From: a bacterium
GTDB taxonomy: Bacteria > Blakebacterota > Blakebacteria > Blakebacterales > Blakebacteraceae
Length of the DNA: 16,960 bases
NCBI GenBank assembly: GCA_025774615.1
Contig: JALGVQ010000049.1
Location: 1 to 16,960, forward strand
Direction: 5' to 3'
A program made the translations under genes and the position numbers. The first letter of the stretch is position 1, and each line of letters starts with the position of its first letter. The notes under the pieces are model-generated. The model had not been told where the DNA came from and did not search any database. It saw only the letters and a program-made list of their open reading frames with translations. Below, in pieces: positions 4,692 to 15,889 of this stretch.

Positions 4692-5693
4692 TCAGGCGGA
4701 CGCGCACACCTCATCGAGTTCCCGCAGGTTCCCGGGCTCACCGATGGCGATAAGGATGTCTCCCCCCTCGATCAGAAGGTCGGGGGGCGGATTGAGGGTC
4801 ATCGTTCCATCGGTCTTCTTCACCGTAATGACCATCAGACCGTATCTGCTCCGGATCTCTGAATCTCTCAGCATGACCCCGGCGAGCCGGCTTCCCTCCT
4901 CGACTCTGATCTCCTCCATGGTGAGATCCAGATGGTCACGGTGAGTGGCGAGTTCGATGAAATCGACGAAGGCTGGTCTCAGGATGGAATGTGCCAGACG
5001 CATCGCCCCGAGACGATAGGGATCAACGACCTTGTCGGCCCCTGCCAGAAGCAGTTTCCCTTCACTCCTCTCGTCATAGGCGCGAGCCATGATGAAGAGG
5101 TCTGGATTCATTCCCCGCGCGGTCAGTGTTATGAAGAGGTTGTCAGCATCCGAGGCAACAGCGCTGATCAGTCCTTTCGCGCTCTTGATATTGGCGGCTT
5201 CCAGCACGTTCTCGGTCGTGGCGTCCCCCTCCACGAAGAGGTGGTCGGATGTCATCAAACGCTGTAGCGCATCACTCTCCTGTTCTACAACGACGGCAGG
5301 AACCTTTTCCTGTGCGAGCTGTCCGGCCAGCACACTTCCCATCCTGCCATAGCCACAGATGATATAGTGGTCTTTGAGTTTCTCTATCTGCCGTTTCACG
5401 TAACGCCTCCCGAAGATCTTGCGGATCTGTCCTTCAACCACGATCCCGCCGATCATGTAGATCGAAAAGGTAACCGCCCCTACTCCGAAAGTGATAAGGA
5501 TGATCGTGAATGCCTGCCCCTTGTGACTCAGGGGTACGACCTCCCGGTACCCTATCGACGCGAGGGTGATGACCGTCATATAAAGCGCATCGAGAAAATT
5601 CGCCCCCTCGATGACCATGTAACCTACCGTCCCTCCCACCAGCGGCAGGAGGATCAGCAGGAGGAGGAGAATGAGTTTCCGGACGGGGCTCAT
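4692..5693 (-). CDS. Potassium-channel-like protein with RCK (TrkA-N/TrkA-C) domains
   Basis: Inner-membrane two-helix ion-channel subunit fused to a cytosolic ligand-sensing module, expected to assemble as a tetramer. Helix 1 is at about 6-27, a pore helix at about 32-45, and helix 2 at about 60-88. A TrkA-N Rossmann domain starts at HYIICGYGRMGSVLAGQL (109-126, GxGxxG with an acidic strand end at VVVE) and runs to about 225. A TrkA-C domain spans about 253-333 (EIRVEEGSRLAGVMLRDSEIR, then GGDILIAIG). The architecture and 333-residue length match bacterial Kch/MthK-like channels. The filter is unusual: where TVGYG(D) is expected the sequence reads S46-I-G-Y-R50-E51, so the last filter glycine is arginine. 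Potassium selectivity is therefore inference from family only. Its start overlaps the upstream gene's stop by 4 bases (ATGA). It is the last gene of a three-gene unit. Confidence 0.9.
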   Translation of the reverse strand: MSPVRKLILLLLLILLPLVGGTVGYMVIEGANFLDALYMTVITLASIGYREVVPLSHKGQAFTIILITFGVGAVTFSIYMIGGIVVEGQIRKIFGRRYVKRQIEKLKDHYIICGYGRMGSVLAGQLAQEKVPAVVVEQESDALQRLMTSDHLFVEGDATTENVLEAANIKSAKGLISAVASDADNLFITLTARGMNPDLFIMARAYDERSEGKLLLAGADKVVDPYRLGAMRLAHSILRPAFVDFIELATHRDHLDLTMEEIRVEEGSRLAGVMLRDSEIRSRYGLMVITVKKTDGTMTLNPPPDLLIEGGDILIAIGEPGNLRELDEVCASA

Positions 5694-8714: not shown

Positions 8715-8753
8715 GTGGCGATCTCAGGCGCTTATTGTGGCGGCCTCAGACGC
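8715..8753. repeat. Imperfect 17-base direct repeat across the convergent junction
   Basis: Two copies, 8715-8731 and 8737-8753, match at 14 of 17 positions (GTGGCGNNCTCAGRCGC) with a 22-base period. One copy encodes the last codons of the penicillin-acylase-family gene and the other lies just past its stop codon. This looks like a small tandem duplication of the gene's 3' end. Confidence 0.45.
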
Positions 8754-11278
8754 ATCGTTCTGACCGCTCCGGCCATGACCTCATCCCAGGTGGTCGCCGA
8801 TGGGCGCGTGCGACCTTCGGCCCACTCTTCGAGCAGATCAGCATAGTGCGGTGAGAGCGGGTGTCCCGCATTGCCGACCGGCAGGATCGATCGGGCTGAA
8901 ACAGGTGCCGAGAGATCCACGATATGTCTCCACGATGAAGAGACTGTTATCCCGTACGGATCATTGTAGGAACTGCCGGTGTTGAAGATGGTGTCGTTGT
9001 CGCCCGACAGGCCGATCGGTCCCCGGTTCATCAGGGAGGTAAGAGGCCAGAACCTGGCCATCGGATGACGGAGTACAAGCTGGTGCAGTTCTCCCCATTC
9101 CCAGCTGTCCGGATCAGGACCGAACAGGCCGGTCGCTTCCTGCCAGACCCGCTCCCATATCCGTTCCACGATCTCCGAGGGTCCTTCTGCTGCGGCGCTC
9201 CTTACATCATCCCACCAGGGAGCATCCGGAGTATCGAGCAGTCTCACGATCACCGGAATCCGCCCCTCGTAGAATTCGAGCAGCACCCGGTAATCCTTCA
9301 GGCCCCGCTCGCCCAGTTCATCGAGCAGCACCTCATCGAAAAACCGGGCGATGAACATCTCGTACAGGACACCCGGGCCCCGGCGTGACAGCTGACCATC
9401 CCACTTGAGGAGCGCGGTCATCGCCTGAACGGTCCGTGTACCCGGATCCGACAGGTTCGTAAGAGTGCCGACCACCTCAAGCGCTGCCAGCGAGCGAACA
9501 TCCCGTTGTATCGCCTCGAATGTCTCCACTGTGTGATCGGAGGTACCTGCCAGTCGAATCACTATCTGGCGGGCACGCCAGGGAGGGATCCACCACCGTC
9601 CCAGGAAGAGCTCCGATCCGAGGGGAAGCGGCCGGTGGTTGGCTGTCACGATGAGCCCGGAGCCAGGATCTTCGGCATGCGGCAGGTCGGCGAACGGCAC
9701 ATACCCATCCCATTCATATTGACCGGTCCACCCGGGAACCGGCAGGGAGCCATCCCATCCGCGGCGGACCGGGATCGCTCCGGTGAATTGCCAGGCGATC
9801 GATCCGGTCGTATCGGCGTAGACGATGTTCTGGCCGGGACTGAGAAACGTACTGAAGAGCTGCCGAATATCGTGCCAGTCACGCGCCTCCAGGATCCGGG
9901 CGAGACTGATCAGCTCACCCCCACCCTCCAGTGTCACCCACCTGAGGGTGATCGGCGGGGAATCCTTCACCCAGTCATCCACGTTCTGCCTGCTCACCTG
10001 AGTGGATCCCCCTGACCCGCCGCCCTCGATGGCATCGACCACCTCTTCGGTGCCATGCAGCATCCGGGTCAGAACGTCATTGATGACCGGCCCGTGCAGG
10101 GTCGAGCGGACCGTCAGTGTTTCCGGCTCCGCTCTCCTCACCTGGATGATCTCACGCCGGACCTCGAAGGGAATCTGCCGGTCCATGAACCAGTAGCTGT
10201 CCGGATCATCTTCAACCGGCCGCTCGAGGTAGAGGTCCTGATTGTCGGCCATGGTGTTGGTGAATCCCCACGCGAAGGCATTGGTCCTGCCGATGATCAC
10301 CGACGGGAGGCCGGGCAGTGACACGCCGACAAGGTCACGGCCGGGAATGTGCAGTCCTCCAGATATCCACAGGGTGGGTATCTGGACGCCGAGGTGGGGA
10401 TCGTTCGCCAGCAGCGGCTTACCCGATCTGGTATGGTCTCCACTGACCGCCCATGCATTGCTGCCGACACCACCTGTCGGCAGGCCGAGAAACTCCCGCA
10501 GGGAGGAGATACCACCGGCCACGAGAGCCCACTGCTTCGGCGTGGTATGGATGTCCGGCAGGGCATCGCCTCTGTCGATTTCATCCGGGGCAGTGCCGTC
10601 CGCAATGAATGCTTCTTTATCAAAGTCGGGCAGCAACAGCTCAACGTCATCTGCGCTGAACCGGGCTTCGAGTGAGGCCCTGACCGCTTCCTGTGCCCAG
10701 TTGGACGACAGCGTCAATCCCATGAGACCTACCTGGATCGCGGAGTCCTCGAGGCTCCACGGCTCGGGCTCCCATCCCAACACTACCAGTTCGAGGGGCA
10801 ACCGGCACGATTTCGATATCAGCCAGGCACTCACTCCGTCGGCATAGGCCTGCAATCTCTCTCTGACGTCCTGGGGGAGTCCCGCCACCTGCTTCTCTGC
10901 GGCCCGATCGAGACCGAGGGTGCGCATGACCCTGTCGGCAGGCAGGGCGAGTGCTCCGAAGAGTTCGGAGAGCCTCCCCCTCCCCGCCAGTCTGCCCAGT
11001 TCCATCTGCCACATTCTCTCGCGGGCGTGCATCCACCCCTGGGCTCTGAGTACATCCTCCCAGTTCTCCCCCCGGATATGCCAGGTGCCCGCCCCATCCC
11101 GGACCACTTCGACTTCTGCCTCGAGACCGGGCAGGTCATCGAGAGCCGGTGGCTCCCGATATGCCATTCTCTCAGCGGTATTGAGCAGGAGGAGCACCAG
11201 AAGCAGGCAGACCGTCCCTATCAGAAAAAGGAAGGTGCCCGTCCTGTTGACTATCGACGCATTACCGGACGTTTTCAC
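8732..11278 (-). CDS. Membrane-anchored penicillin-acylase-family Ntn hydrolase
   Basis: Self-cleaving amide hydrolase of the penicillin acylase family (peptidase family S45), whose members cut acyl-amide bonds in beta-lactams, acyl-homoserine lactones or lipopeptides. The substrate here is unknown. After one N-terminal helix (about 14-33, no lipobox, so probably an anchor) comes the alpha part with DGAGTWHIRGENWEDVLRAQG (61-81) and the family's ARERMWQMELGRLAGRGRLSE (85-105). Autocleavage is expected before Ser273 in GSNAWAVSG, giving a beta chain of 576 residues. His295 in NDPHL falls at beta position 23, as in the cephalosporin-acylase/PvdQ-like members. Later come GRTNAFAWGFTN and, near the end, GLSGDNDTIFNTGSS. 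Translation starts at GTG with GGAGG 7 bases upstream. The 848-residue length is normal for the precursor. It converges with the M20 gene, leaving 33 bases between them. Confidence 0.93.
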   Translation of the reverse strand: MKTSGNASIVNRTGTFLFLIGTVCLLLVLLLLNTAERMAYREPPALDDLPGLEAEVEVVRDGAGTWHIRGENWEDVLRAQGWMHARERMWQMELGRLAGRGRLSELFGALALPADRVMRTLGLDRAAEKQVAGLPQDVRERLQAYADGVSAWLISKSCRLPLELVVLGWEPEPWSLEDSAIQVGLMGLTLSSNWAQEAVRASLEARFSADDVELLLPDFDKEAFIADGTAPDEIDRGDALPDIHTTPKQWALVAGGISSLREFLGLPTGGVGSNAWAVSGDHTRSGKPLLANDPHLGVQIPTLWISGGLHIPGRDLVGVSLPGLPSVIIGRTNAFAWGFTNTMADNQDLYLERPVEDDPDSYWFMDRQIPFEVRREIIQVRRAEPETLTVRSTLHGPVINDVLTRMLHGTEEVVDAIEGGGSGGSTQVSRQNVDDWVKDSPPITLRWVTLEGGGELISLARILEARDWHDIRQLFSTFLSPGQNIVYADTTGSIAWQFTGAIPVRRGWDGSLPVPGWTGQYEWDGYVPFADLPHAEDPGSGLIVTANHRPLPLGSELFLGRWWIPPWRARQIVIRLAGTSDHTVETFEAIQRDVRSLAALEVVGTLTNLSDPGTRTVQAMTALLKWDGQLSRRGPGVLYEMFIARFFDEVLLDELGERGLKDYRVLLEFYEGRIPVIVRLLDTPDAPWWDDVRSAAAEGPSEIVERIWERVWQEATGLFGPDPDSWEWGELHQLVLRHPMARFWPLTSLMNRGPIGLSGDNDTIFNTGSSYNDPYGITVSSSWRHIVDLSAPVSARSILPVGNAGHPLSPHYADLLEEWAEGRTRPSATTWDEVMAGAVRTMRLRPPQ

Positions 11279-11506: not shown

Positions 11507-14500
11507 ATGCATACCGAACAGGGAAAAAGACCAGGACGAGCCGCTGACGCGCCGGTGATCCTTACCCTCATCGTTGCGTTCCTCGTGATCGTTCCGGGCC
11601 CCTGGCTGGAAACAGCTTCGGCTCAGGTTGCCGCTTCCGGGGGCCCTGTCACTGTCAGCTTCCGAACCCAGCCCCGGACACTCGATGACCGGTGGCCGCT
11701 CATGTTCACCTGGAACAGAAACAAGGTGAACTGGTGGGATTTTTCCTGGCGGTCTGTTGATCTCCCCAGAACAACACTTTACTACTACGCCGATGCCGAA
11801 CCGATCGCGCGGATGACCGTGCCACTGGTCCTTGAGAGCGACCAGGCCCTGCAGGACGCTTTCAGCTATGACCTGCAGACTTTTACAGCAAACAAGACAA
11901 TCCCGAAGATCATCTACACCAGCCATCACACGTTCGAACAGACCAATACCATCGAGCAGGTCGTTCCCGAGGGTGTACTCGGTTTCACCGAGTTCATCAA
12001 GGGACGGGTTGTGTTCCCTTACACCGGCGGCAACTATGAGTTCCGTCACGTGCTCGAGCATGAGAATACCCACATACACATGATCCACAAGCTGAAGCAC
12101 GTCTTCAAAGCCAATGGGATATTCGATACCTCAAAACTGCTTCCGACACTGTGGTTCAGTGAGGGACTGGCCGAGTTCGAATCGGCCGGACGTGACCCGG
12201 TCACCGACCAGCGGCGGATGGACCCCGAGACCGAGATGTATGTGCGTGACGCGCTGATCAACGACACTCTGCCGACCATCCGGGAGATGCGGATCTTTCC
12301 TGACTGGCGACTGGTCTACAAGTTCGGCCACGCTCTCGTACAATATTTCGGAGCCCGCTACAGCACGGACCGCGTGCACACCATGCTGTCACAGTGGCAC
12401 CACCTCTTCCCCAACCGGAGAAGCTATAATTACCTGAAGAGACGGCAGGAGGATTCCTGGGACCTGCTCAATCCCGGAGTCGAATTCATCGAACCGCGGT
12501 TCATACGGATCGGTGAAGCCGATATTCCGGTATCCGAAACAGCCACCGGCTGGATGGCGGGACTCACTGATGGCCTGGTCGATTCCATTGACGGAGTGCC
12601 TGTCAGTGAACTGGTGGCCGGTTCAGAGAACCTCCAGGTCGATGAACAATGGTACCGGGTCATTCAGCTCCCTTCCGGTGAGAAGGCTCTCTACCGTCCC
12701 GACAGTGGTCTCCATATCTATCTGAACGGTGATCAGGTCACCCGGATCGTCCAGCGGGCCCGACTCGATTATGAAAAGAGGGCGTACCGGCTCATGTCAT
12801 TCGAGAATCTCCTCGAATGGTGGTTCGACACCGATCTGAAGCTCTTCACATCCGAGTGGCACGAGGACATCGGCGACTACTATCGTCCATGGCTCGAAGG
12901 ACGGGAAAGCGTAACCGACTATCCATCGATCGGAGAAACCGCGCCCGAACTGTGGCCGACCGCCTCTGACGATGGAAGGATCATCTTCTACAAGGCGTAT
13001 CACGACGATTATGTCTTTACAGCGGTCGCTCTCGATATCGAGACCGGTCAGACTGTTCAACTGGCCGAGGAGACCGGACCCGAAGTGGAGAGCATCCACA
13101 TTCTGTCCGAGGGGGGTGATGTGCGGCGTCTCGCTGATGACCGTTATCTGGCCCTCTTCACGGCTCAACGCCGATCTCGTGATGTTGTCTATACCCAGGA
13201 GATCCAGAGACTGCCCGACGGCAGCCTCGAACGGACAGGACCACGGTCACTCCGCTTCGATCCCGGAGAGAGCGGCCTGACTGGCATCACCGGTGTGAGA
13301 TTCGCCGGAGGCACCGACCGGATACTCCTCTCCGGACTCGGACTCGACGGATATCAGGATCTTTATCTGGTCGATCTCGTAACGGGCATGATCGAACGTC
13401 GCCTGACGAACGACCTCGCCAGCGACCGCATGCCGATTCTCTGGAACGGGGACGTGGTGTTCGCCTCCGACCGGGCCAGTCCGGTGACGACCTTCGCCTA
13501 TCATCTCTTCAGTTTCGATCTGGAAACCGGTGGGATCACACAACTCACCGACGGATCGGGTAACGAGATGAACCCGGCGGTCTCCCCTGATGGTGAGCGA
13601 CTCTTCTTTCAATCAGATGCAACCGGTGTGACGAATATCTACATCTGGAATGAGGGGGGAACTCCCTTCAGGGTGACCGATGTGACCACAGGGGTGTTCG
13701 TACCGGCTCCCATCTCCGCCGACACCATCATCGTGTCAGGATTCCACGACCGGAAGTTCCTCCTCTACCAGGTGGCTGTGCCCGATACTCCCGCTGGTGT
13801 CGAGAATGCTCCGGATGCCACTGTTGCAATCGGGGCTCTGCCAGAACAGAACGCGAGTCTCGTTACCATGAGGCGGGAATGGGCGCGGGACAGCGTCACA
13901 TCGGCCGACCGTCTGGCATCAGAGCCTCTGCAGTCCCGGGAATACAAGCCGGTCTTCTCTCTTGATAATCTTTATGCATCCAGCCAGTTCGGCGGATACA
14001 GCGCCTATAATGCCGCGGTCTTCGGCACGGGGGTCCGGTTCAGCGATATCCTGGGGAACCATCACCTGAGCGGGGCACTGTGGAATGGCGCGCGCAGGGG
14101 CATCGAGGATGTCTCATGGGTCGTGAGTTATCTGAACCAGGCGAAACGGGTAAAGATGGGTGCCTCGATCTTCAAGACGAGCGGTGTGTATTACAACTTC
14201 CCGCGCCAGGCATTCTACTACCGCGATAGGGCAGGATTGGCGGGCCAGTTCAACATTCCATTCAATGCCTTCAGCAATATTGATATGTACGTAGCCGTCG
14301 CCACCGAACGAAGGAGTCTTGGAACGATCACCGGTTCGATTGAATTCGACCTGCTCGAGCTCGGTATCGGGTACACCCGTGACGTTTCTGTCTGGACTTC
14401 CCAGGGGCCGCATTCCGGCTGGGTTTTCAGTGCCTATTACGATTACATGCTGAATGTCTCGGATGATTTCGACGTCTTCTCCCGATATCTTATCGCGGAT

Positions 14501-14932
14501 GTCAGAGGATACCTGCCGCTGCATCGGCATATCGTAGCTGCTGCGCGGGTGGCGGGCGGGCACAGCACCGGCACGGAACCGGAGTTCTTCTTCCTCGGAG
14601 GCGGTTTCTTCCTCAGAGGATACTGGGACCTCTACTCTATCTACGGCACCTCTTACAGCCTGATCAATTCGGAGCTGAGGATCCAGGCACTCGAACTCCT
14701 GCAGATCAAACCACCCCGGATGTTCGAACAGGGCGGCTGGCCAATACAGCTTGTCCTGTTCGGAGACTGGGCACGTACCCTCTGGAGGGATTCAGTCCAG
14801 GGACCAAAGGGCGCGGGTGGCGTAAGCATCAGGCTGACGATGGCATTACCATTCATCATCGAATATGCCTGGTACCGGAAGAATATGTGGGATAGCGCCA
14901 GCGGTGATCACCCGAGGATGTACAGGAGGTAG
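11507..14932 (+). CDS. Fusion of gluzincin-type metallopeptidase domain, beta-propeller and Omp85-like outer-membrane barrel
   Basis: Very large envelope protein of 1141 residues, function unknown. The signal peptide spans residues 1-39, with cleavage at ASA-Q. A Peptidase_MA-like domain (about 100-330) has a complete zinc site: HENTH at 185-189 (HExxH) and Glu219 in WFSEGLAEF 30 residues later, so it should be catalytically competent. About 330-460 is an uncharacterised linker with a DSIDGVPVSELV stretch faintly like PDZ. About 470-765 holds TolB/PD40-like propeller blades (NEMNPAVSPDGERLFFQSD near 686 is the clearest). About 815-1141 is a beta-barrel with a FFLGGGFFLRGYWDL segment (Arg1037), matching the L6 'RGY/RGF' signature of BamA/Omp85 surface-antigen barrels. 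A likely arrangement is a barrel in the outer membrane with propeller and protease in the periplasm. The ribosome binding site (GAGGA, 14 bases away) is weak. The gene's end overlaps the antiporter gene by 25 bases on the other strand. Confidence 0.85.
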   Translation: MHTEQGKRPGRAADAPVILTLIVAFLVIVPGPWLETASAQVAASGGPVTVSFRTQPRTLDDRWPLMFTWNRNKVNWWDFSWRSVDLPRTTLYYYADAEPIARMTVPLVLESDQALQDAFSYDLQTFTANKTIPKIIYTSHHTFEQTNTIEQVVPEGVLGFTEFIKGRVVFPYTGGNYEFRHVLEHENTHIHMIHKLKHVFKANGIFDTSKLLPTLWFSEGLAEFESAGRDPVTDQRRMDPETEMYVRDALINDTLPTIREMRIFPDWRLVYKFGHALVQYFGARYSTDRVHTMLSQWHHLFPNRRSYNYLKRRQEDSWDLLNPGVEFIEPRFIRIGEADIPVSETATGWMAGLTDGLVDSIDGVPVSELVAGSENLQVDEQWYRVIQLPSGEKALYRPDSGLHIYLNGDQVTRIVQRARLDYEKRAYRLMSFENLLEWWFDTDLKLFTSEWHEDIGDYYRPWLEGRESVTDYPSIGETAPELWPTASDDGRIIFYKAYHDDYVFTAVALDIETGQTVQLAEETGPEVESIHILSEGGDVRRLADDRYLALFTAQRRSRDVVYTQEIQRLPDGSLERTGPRSLRFDPGESGLTGITGVRFAGGTDRILLSGLGLDGYQDLYLVDLVTGMIERRLTNDLASDRMPILWNGDVVFASDRASPVTTFAYHLFSFDLETGGITQLTDGSGNEMNPAVSPDGERLFFQSDATGVTNIYIWNEGGTPFRVTDVTTGVFVPAPISADTIIVSGFHDRKFLLYQVAVPDTPAGVENAPDATVAIGALPEQNASLVTMRREWARDSVTSADRLASEPLQSREYKPVFSLDNLYASSQFGGYSAYNAAVFGTGVRFSDILGNHHLSGALWNGARRGIEDVSWVVSYLNQAKRVKMGASIFKTSGVYYNFPRQAFYYRDRAGLAGQFNIPFNAFSNIDMYVAVATERRSLGTITGSIEFDLLELGIGYTRDVSVWTSQGPHSGWVFSAYYDYMLNVSDDFDVFSRYLIADVRGYLPLHRHIVAAARVAGGHSTGTEPEFFFLGGGFFLRGYWDLYSIYGTSYSLINSELRIQALELLQIKPPRMFEQGGWPIQLVLFGDWARTLWRDSVQGPKGAGGVSIRLTMALPFIIEYAWYRKNMWDSASGDHPRMYRR

Positions 14933-15840
14933 AGGCCGAAGAGAAGCAGCAGCACTCCCCCCCCCCACCGATCCAACTTCTTCCCGATCGCAAGCAGGAG
15001 AAGGGCGATGACCCCGAATCCCGTCATGATCAGTATATCGGGTGTCGCTGTTCCCGGATCGACTCCGATGGGGCGCACCAGCGCGGTGAGACCGAGGATC
15101 GCGAGTACATTGAAGACGCTCGATCCGACCAGGTTCCCAAGAACCAGATCACTCTCATGCTTCGCGGCAGCGACAACACAGCTCGCCAGTTCCGGCAGAC
15201 TCGTACCCAGAGCCACCACGGTCAGTCCGATGATCCGCTCCGAGATACCGAGCGAGGTCGCGATATCGATCGCACCGATCACCAGCCACCTGGCGCCGAT
15301 GACCAGCACCGCGATACCCGCGGCGATCTCCAGAAGCGATCGCATGACCCGCCCCGCGACTTTCTCTTCATTCAACCGTCGATCTTCCGCGGCCGCTTCT
15401 GTCCTGCGGTTCTGATAGATGGCCACCAGATAGACACCGAGCAGCATAATGAGGAAGAGACCTTCCAGCCGGTCGATCTCTCCGTCGGGCACCAGGAGAA
15501 GGAGCAGCGCGCAGACCGCGATCATGAAGGGAAGTTCGCGCTTGAGGAAGGATCGCGTCGTCGTGATGGCATGGATGAGAGCGACGATGCCGAGGACGGC
15601 ACCGATATTGAGAATGTTCGATCCGATGACATTCCCCATCACCACACCGGGGGCGTCCTTCAGGGCCGCGACGAGGGATGCGGCCAGTTCAGGGGCAGAG
15701 GTACCGAACGCCACCACGGTCAGTCCGACCACGATCTGCCGTATCCCCAGCACACGGGAAAAACGCACCGCGCCGCGTACGAGGAATTCACCTCCGATAT
15801 ACAGACCGATGATGCCGCCGATAATGGTGAGGATCTGCAT
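14908..15840 (-). CDS. Ca2+/Na+:cation antiporter (CaCA family, YrbG-like)
   Basis: Inner-membrane antiporter expected to expel Ca2+ in exchange for Na+ or H+. About ten hydrophobic segments are arranged in two inverted halves. The two ion-binding alpha repeats are intact: GLTVVAFGTSAPELAASLVAA followed by GNVIGSNILNIG in the first half, and GLTVVALGTSLPELASCVVAA followed by GNLVGSSVFNVLAILG in the second. A charged cytoplasmic loop (NRRTEAAAEDRRLNEEK) separates the halves. I chose the ATG at 15840 (310 residues, MQILTIIGG...). A TTG at 15876 would add 12 hydrophilic residues but falls in the loop of a strong hairpin and has no ribosome binding site. It lies about 100 bases after the MacB-type permease gene and may be co-transcribed with it. 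A 10-base G run is present near its 3' end. Confidence 0.92.
   Translation of the reverse strand: MQILTIIGGIIGLYIGGEFLVRGAVRFSRVLGIRQIVVGLTVVAFGTSAPELAASLVAALKDAPGVVMGNVIGSNILNIGAVLGIVALIHAITTTRSFLKRELPFMIAVCALLLLLVPDGEIDRLEGLFLIMLLGVYLVAIYQNRRTEAAAEDRRLNEEKVAGRVMRSLLEIAAGIAVLVIGARWLVIGAIDIATSLGISERIIGLTVVALGTSLPELASCVVAAAKHESDLVLGNLVGSSVFNVLAILGLTALVRPIGVDPGTATPDILIMTGFGVIALLLLAIGKKLDRWGGGVLLLLFGLYLLYILG
14957..14966. repeat. Ten-base homopolymer C/G tract inside the antiporter gene
   Basis: Ten consecutive C on the plus strand (G on the coding strand) encode the Trp-Gly-Gly-Gly of the antiporter's last loop. It is the longest homopolymer in the window; other G/C runs in coding regions reach 7-8. 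The frame is intact as given, but such tracts slip during replication and are error-prone in sequencing. Confidence 0.8.
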
Positions 15841-15863
15841 CCTGCTGATCTGTCCCCCTGGCA

Positions 15864-15889
15864 CACCGTTCCGCAATCACGGAGCGGTG
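15864..15889. repeat. 10-bp hairpin between permease and antiporter genes
   Basis: CACCGTTCCG (15864-15873) and CGGAGCGGTG (15880-15889) pair at 9 of 10 positions, the tenth pairing as G-T wobble in RNA, around a 6-base loop. It lies on the minus-strand transcript after the permease stop and 23 bases before the antiporter ATG. There is no T-run on either side, so a simple terminator is unlikely; a leader or mRNA-processing hairpin fits better. Confidence 0.55.

Follow-up and report, generated by a model that had tools for sequence, protein, structure and literature searches.

A predicted outer-membrane protein family joining a zinc peptidase, a TolB-like propeller and a BamA-like barrel, described from a Blakebacterota contig

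Described systems and the locus under study

According to the available text of Heinz & Lithgow (2014, PMC4104836), the Omp85 superfamily is defined by its barrel and includes a WD40-Omp85 subfamily, in which a propeller is combined with the barrel without POTRA domains, an arrangement likened there to a fusion of BamA and BamB. Here we describe a gene from a 16,960-nucleotide stretch of bacterial DNA (contig JALGVQ010000049.1 of assembly GCA_025774615.1, phylum Blakebacterota; the whole stretch is referred to as the window), whose product, P0001, is predicted to reside in the outer membrane and to combine a zinc protease, a TolB-like propeller and a BamA-like barrel in one chain. The window protein has the arrangement that marks out the WD40-Omp85 subfamily, a TolB-like propeller directly N-terminal to the Omp85 barrel, and likewise lacks POTRA domains. 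In contrast, the available text on the subfamily describes neither a peptidase domain nor a BamB-like partner gene, and the "Metallo" class defined there is based on PF00149, which is another domain.

What is known of outer-membrane assembly comes largely from proteobacteria and, since 2025, also from one barrel assembly machinery (BAM) of Bacteroidota, that of F. johnsoniae; the main text of the paper describing the latter mentions no BamB, propeller or peptidase (PMC12611786). The origin of BamB has been placed within proteobacteria by a 2026 review (PMC13067283). The window protein shares with BamA, including the F. johnsoniae protein, the barrel fold and an RGY-type motif in loop L6, and the BamB-like lipoprotein gene near many members of its family, the type I genes described below, is a further likeness to BAM. 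Unlike BamA, it has no POTRA domains, carries peptidase and propeller in the same chain and is encoded in a genome with a separate bamA-like locus. In E. coli, stalled LptD and BamA are degraded by BepA, a zinc metallopeptidase that binds to BAM (PMC8423444). Here the likeness is one of proposed role only, that of a zinc metallopeptidase with HExxH and a glutamate acting at outer-membrane protein assembly: BepA is a soluble M48 enzyme with a TPR domain, whereas the window peptidase is M9/M30-like and fused to a barrel. The patatin-Omp85 protein PlpD, whose enzyme domain stays in the periplasm (PMC11116518), resembles the window protein in having that domain ahead of an Omp85 barrel, but it combines a patatin lipase with one POTRA domain where the window protein combines a zinc peptidase with a propeller.

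In a literature search that mostly did not extend to subscription journals, no publication was found that treats Omp85 together with Peptidase MA, PD40 or gluzincin, and the peptidase-bearing fusion may have been described elsewhere. The propeller-barrel part thus belongs to a published class; for the peptidase and the BamB-like partner gene we found no published account.

Domain architecture and residue conservation

Compared with Pfam on its own, the protein translated from the open reading frame (ORF) at 11507-14932 gave a significant match to PD40, a match to Peptidase_M9 just below the cut-off and none to Omp85 (PF01103). Because this result was weak, the architecture was tested through relatives and folds. 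Several diverse full-length relatives matched Peptidase_MA_2 (PF13485), PD40 and Omp85 all above gathering, the last in 6 of the 8 relatives scanned, and an AlphaFold2 model of the window protein built with 57 relatives displayed a peptidase, a propeller and a barrel (predicted local distance difference test, pLDDT, 74.5; predicted template modelling score, pTM, 0.77). A preliminary description, made from the DNA letters, had read the gene as an intact zinc-protease site, a propeller and an Omp85-like barrel in one chain, a reading borne out by the Pfam matches of the relatives, the model and the comparisons with solved structures. No POTRA domain was found in the Pfam scans of the window protein and its relatives or in the model, in agreement with the earlier suggestion that these domains had been replaced, and the window protein was hence not classed as BamA or TamA.

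The residues H185, E186, H189, E219 and Y271 were invariant across 58 aligned proteins and also in a separate set of 22 proteins chosen by E-value, independently of the two patterns used for scanning reference genomes. Neither pattern held HExxH, so the conservation of this motif is no sampling effect. One pattern held the glutamate of EGLAE, but E219 is conserved in the E-value-based set as well. Modelled alone (pLDDT 75.6), the peptidase part was closest to the M9 collagenase 4ar1 (Z 16.6) and the M30 enzyme lugdulysin 7bb8 (Z 16.0), with M1 enzymes scoring lower. Profile alignments to M9 collagenases placed their EGxAE on E219 and the tyrosine of IYRWG in 7esi on Y271, and the alignment to ColG also put HExxH on the window site. 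Fold and motifs together identify the modelled peptidase as a gluzincin (clan MA) with HExxH and a downstream glutamate ligand, for which zinc-dependent proteolysis is predicted. The M9 collagenases and the M30 lugdulysin share with it the gluzincin fold, the HExxH...EGxAE signature and the conserved tyrosine, but these are secreted enzymes without propeller or barrel, at a sequence identity of 9-15%. The fold matches listed for the peptidase domain include no M48 (BepA-type) enzyme, a lack that by itself rules out nothing, and the Pfam scan of the window protein gave no match to M48 or TPR.

The best structural counterparts of the modelled barrel were BamA 8xnb (Z 23.2) and 4k3b (Z 22.1), F. 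johnsoniae 9n2f (Z 22.0) and Sam50 7btw (Z 21.3), the matches to BamA and Sam50 spanning about 280-298 residues. LRGY lies between strands 11 and 12 of the model, which is the L6 position of BamA. By its BamA-like predicted fold, its L6 motif, which fits the (V/L)RG(F/Y) pattern of the superfamily, and its strand-13 aspartate, the barrel can be assigned to Omp85. The model thus contains the barrel with an RGY loop and the gluzincin fold that the preliminary description had anticipated; neither a different C-terminal fold nor variable histidine and glutamate residues, which would have spoken against it, was observed. For the propeller, the likeness to TolB is one of fold only, with a score of 48.4 bits against the TolB equivalog TIGR02800 (cut-off 343).

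To quantify the constraint on the gene, we calculated substitution frequencies (NG86) against the congeneric orthologue from genome G001 (L013). The nonsynonymous (dN) and synonymous (dS) values were 0.159 and 1.158 for the whole gene (dN/dS about 0.14), 0.078 and 1.19 for the peptidase part (about 0.07), and 0.116 and 1.81 for the barrel part, showing that the gene is under purifying selection. A chance ORF or motif was rejected on account of this selection and of the residues invariant among relatives. An assembly chimera of the locus is unlikely, as the order of the M20 peptidase, penicillin acylase and protease-barrel genes is the same in G002, and the short contigs of G001 and G003 agree where they reach.

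Several features go beyond the preliminary description, including two peculiarities of the window copy (Table 1). The insert between peptidase and propeller was poorly modelled, with pLDDT below 50 over residues 318-382; a PDZ-like reading of it was a guess and found no support. The window copy also lacks the sixteenth strand of the barrel. The G001 orthologue and the relatives keep this additional C-terminal strand, as GLLVTLMF and as FFFGWDF-type sequences, respectively. The 3' end of the window gene overlaps the convergent Na/Ca exchanger gene (14908-15876, reverse strand) by 25 bases, and no second reading frame that would restore the last strand was found near it. The missing strand may be natural or an effect of the assembly.

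Table 1. Positions in the window of the protease-barrel gene, its parts and one neighbouring gene
Feature	Residues	Position	Strand	Basis or remark
Whole gene: signal peptide, gluzincin peptidase, insert, TolB-like propeller, Omp85-type barrel	1-1141	11507..14932	+	1141 aa (P0001)
Signal peptide ending ASAQ, without lipobox	1-40	11507..11626	+	Sequence; Q40 invariant in alignment A4
Predicted gluzincin-type peptidase core	67-300	11705..12406	+	Relatives match PF13485 above gathering; M9/M30 fold, Z about 16
HENTH (HExxH zinc site)	185-189	12059..12073	+	H/E/H invariant in 58 and 22 proteins
Predicted third zinc ligand, E219 (EGLAE, within LWFSEGLAEF)	219	12161..12163	+	Invariant; aligned to EGxAE of M9 collagenases
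Predicted transition-state tyrosine, Y271 (putative catalytic role)	271	12317..12319	+	Invariant; aligned to Tyr of IYRWG in Vibrio collagenase 7esi
Lineage-specific insert, about 128 residues	301-428	12407..12790	+	Almost no counterpart in 57 relatives; present in G001 orthologue L013
TolB-like propeller	469-757	12911..13777	+	PD40; 2ojh Z 24.2, 1crz Z 24.1
Omp85/BamA-type barrel	817-1141	13955..14929	+	15 long strands predicted (817-1125); relatives match PF01103
LRGY motif of inward loop L6	1036-1039	14612..14623	+	R1037 invariant in 58 aligned proteins
D1087, FxDxGxxW-type motif of strand 13	1087	14765..14767	+	Invariant in 58 aligned proteins
Atypical C-terminus, last barrel strand and terminal aromatic missing		14885..14932	+	Replaced by GDHPRMYRR; comparison with relatives
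Penicillin acylase-type hydrolase, divergent from the protease-barrel gene		8732-11278	-	M20 peptidase gene also in the window

Family distribution and the BamB-like partner gene

The window genome (G000, 82% complete) encodes two further proteins built in the same way, one on contig C177 and one on C133, and orthologues of the window protein with the HENTH site are present in all three other genomes of its family-level lineage (catalytic residues kept in 4 of 4). A scan of reference genomes with a profile of 6 sequences yielded at least 462 matching places, mostly in phyla of the Fibrobacterota-Chlorobiota-Bacteroidota (FCB) group, so that the family is widespread among environmental bacteria. 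The best 80 matches were mainly labelled Ignavibacteria, Bacteroidetes (including Rhodothermales), Calditrichota, Zixibacteria, Latescibacterota, Gemmatimonadota, KSB1, Neomarinimicrobiota or Kryptonia. Similar fusions had been suspected to exist unnamed in FCB-type genomes; they do exist, but the propeller-Omp85 class has a name, WD40-Omp85, and only the peptidase goes unremarked in the available text on it (PMC4104836). Many genomes hold 3-10 family matches. The family was present in all 53 genomes of one phylum (49 of 49 of high quality), 43 of which had a copy scoring at least 345 bits, and in all 8 genomes of another, which suggests a core function in the envelope.

A tree of 79 rows, inferred with a quick method and with SH-aLRT support only, split the family into type I (62 rows), most of which have a BamB-like neighbour, and type II (17 rows), without this neighbour. 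The type II side includes both paralogues from the window genome. The window protein fell on the type I side (support 97), but its placement is uncertain because of its very long branch (1.96 changes per column); it is a divergent member of the family, without a BamB-like neighbour. Contigs labelled SAR202 (L094) and Gemmatimonadetes (L098) grouped tightly with copies from Neomarinimicrobiota and Latescibacterota in this tree and are probably mislabelled or misbinned.

We also clustered the ORFs surrounding the 80 best-scoring of the at least 462 loci (L070-L149); rates in the rest of the family may differ. The dominant neighbour, located directly downstream of the type I genes, encodes a lipoprotein of about 390 residues with a PQQ/BamB-type propeller. 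Of the 72 loci that extend far enough downstream, 65 carry it, 63 of them as the very next gene and 64 on the same strand, and they span about 10 phylum-level labels. Each such locus had one member, against a flank background of about zero. In most cases the start codon falls in the last part of the upstream gene or shortly beyond it, suggesting an operon. The lipobox cysteine was invariant in the 37 aligned members, all of which matched BamB models; their profile matched solved BamB at E about 1e-54, and a representative (L082) matched PF13360 (PQQ_2/BamB propeller) above gathering. The lipoprotein thus shares with BamB (YfgL) both the propeller and the lipobox. The remaining neighbours were conserved only inside smaller groups; a second downstream gene (about 260 residues, with a weak PEGA-like N-terminus and a C-terminal hydrophobic segment) was conserved in 24 loci, for example at L081:11859-12599. 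The window genome itself has a BamB-like lipoprotein gene on contig C209, which is not beside an Omp85 gene.

Eight Omp85 matches were found in the window genome, including a bamA-skp-lpx-like locus and a patatin-Omp85 gene, which were identified from translated starts and gene order. At the former, Skp-like and Lpx-type genes come after the Omp85 gene, the order expected for a canonical bamA, and the window protein is therefore probably an accessory Omp85 protein. The patatin-Omp85 (PlpD-like) gene, recognised by its GGGSRG start and Omp85 match, encodes 921 residues (L170:3178-5940, reverse strand). On C177 the type II paralogue is followed by a gene (L009:7226-8686) whose product is a predicted zinc metallopeptidase (HEFQH...EGLAEY), as it is in G001 (L066). 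At the window locus, the order of the M20, acylase and protease-barrel genes is matched in G001 and G003 by partial contigs. Elsewhere in the window, positions 4692-5693 on the reverse strand encode a protein of the two-helix potassium-channel type that carries a TrkA-N and a TrkA-C domain.

Possible roles in the outer membrane

With slightly less than even confidence, we propose that the window protein is an accessory BAM-like factor for outer-membrane assembly or quality control that carries its own periplasm-facing protease. Exported by the signal peptide seen in its sequence, it would insert into the outer membrane through the BamA-like barrel, as the predicted fold and the conserved motifs suggest. 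The peptidase and the propeller precede the first strand and, by analogy with other Omp85 proteins, would face the periplasm, where the propeller may offer a docking surface, like those of TolB and BamB. In most relatives, as gene order shows, the adjoining gene encodes a separate BamB-like lipoprotein, which would probably belong to the same complex. Barrel and propellers would receive proteins bound for the outer membrane, and the zinc peptidase could cut those that are stalled or misfolded, or trim a specific substrate. The cell would thereby have, besides the standard BamA, a BAM-like factor for assembly or quality control into which a BepA-like protease is built. This proposal draws on the folds of all three domains, the invariant catalytic residues, the linkage to the BamB-like gene, the phylum-wide presence and the precedents of BepA and PlpD.

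Several observations weigh against an assembly or quality-control role. PQQ-type propeller lipoproteins are common, and the representative L082 is far below the cut-off of the BamB equivalog (TIGR03300, 128 bits against 285), for which reason we call the neighbour only BamB-like. It is missing beside both the window copy and the type II paralogues, and the window copy lacks strand 16. A role related to lipids or to secretion is also possible for an Omp85 protein; PlpD, for example, acts on lipids (PMC11116518).

The preliminary description suggested a device that processes or gates proteins at the periplasmic face. In such a reading the barrel would export or anchor particular secreted or surface proteins and the peptidase would trim them en route. 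Such a dedicated translocase or maturation protease has precedents in the Omp85 relatives FhaC and TpsB, which translocate proteins according to the available text of PMC4104836, and the several paralogues per genome would fit different substrates. The metallopeptidase gene that follows one type II copy in two genomes also speaks for it. However, no constant substrate-like gene is found beside either type, the constant neighbour being the BamB-like lipoprotein, and no POTRA domain is present in the Pfam scans; we consider this role unlikely. A PlpD-like enzyme of outer-membrane homeostasis also appears unlikely; its barrel would have no insertase function and would only anchor the peptidase at the inner face of the membrane, with lipoproteins, peptidoglycan-linked proteins or periplasmic peptides as substrates. 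The enzyme domain of PlpD is indeed periplasmic and no insertase role has been shown for its barrel (PMC11116518). The likeness of the propeller to TolB hints that Pal-type lipoproteins are contacted, and penicillin acylase and M20 peptidase genes adjoin the window gene. Yet the invariant L6 arginine and strand-13 aspartate indicate that features beyond mere anchoring are conserved, and type I genes have their BamB-like neighbour.

Decay or loss of function of this paralogue in the window would accord with its long branch, its missing last strand and the lack of the neighbouring lipoprotein gene, but is very improbable given the low dN/dS in peptidase and barrel, the catalytic residues kept throughout the family-level lineage and a locus order that is preserved as far as the contigs reach. 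We give even less credence to the peptidase being an extracellular digestive or collagenase-like enzyme, whether displayed or released. Although the closest solved folds are those of secreted M9 collagenases and M30 lugdulysin, the peptidase's place ahead of an Omp85 barrel implies a periplasmic location, a comparable claim about PlpD has been overturned (PMC11116518), and presence in every genome of one phylum is at odds with an optional digestive enzyme.

The family and its BamB-like partner gene are of more interest than the odd copy in the window, and together they make a concrete two-gene system. If the proposed assembly or quality-control role is correct, its members would constitute a built-in quality-control or processing device of the outer membrane, and BamB-type partners would extend beyond proteobacteria. 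It is possible, although we regard it as rather doubtful, that FCB bacteria possess a second outer-membrane assembly machine that bears a protease: a single chain of peptidase, TolB-like propeller and BamA-like barrel would work with a BamB-like lipoprotein of its own, a BamB-type subunit outside proteobacteria, and one complex would couple the insertion and the destruction of outer-membrane proteins.

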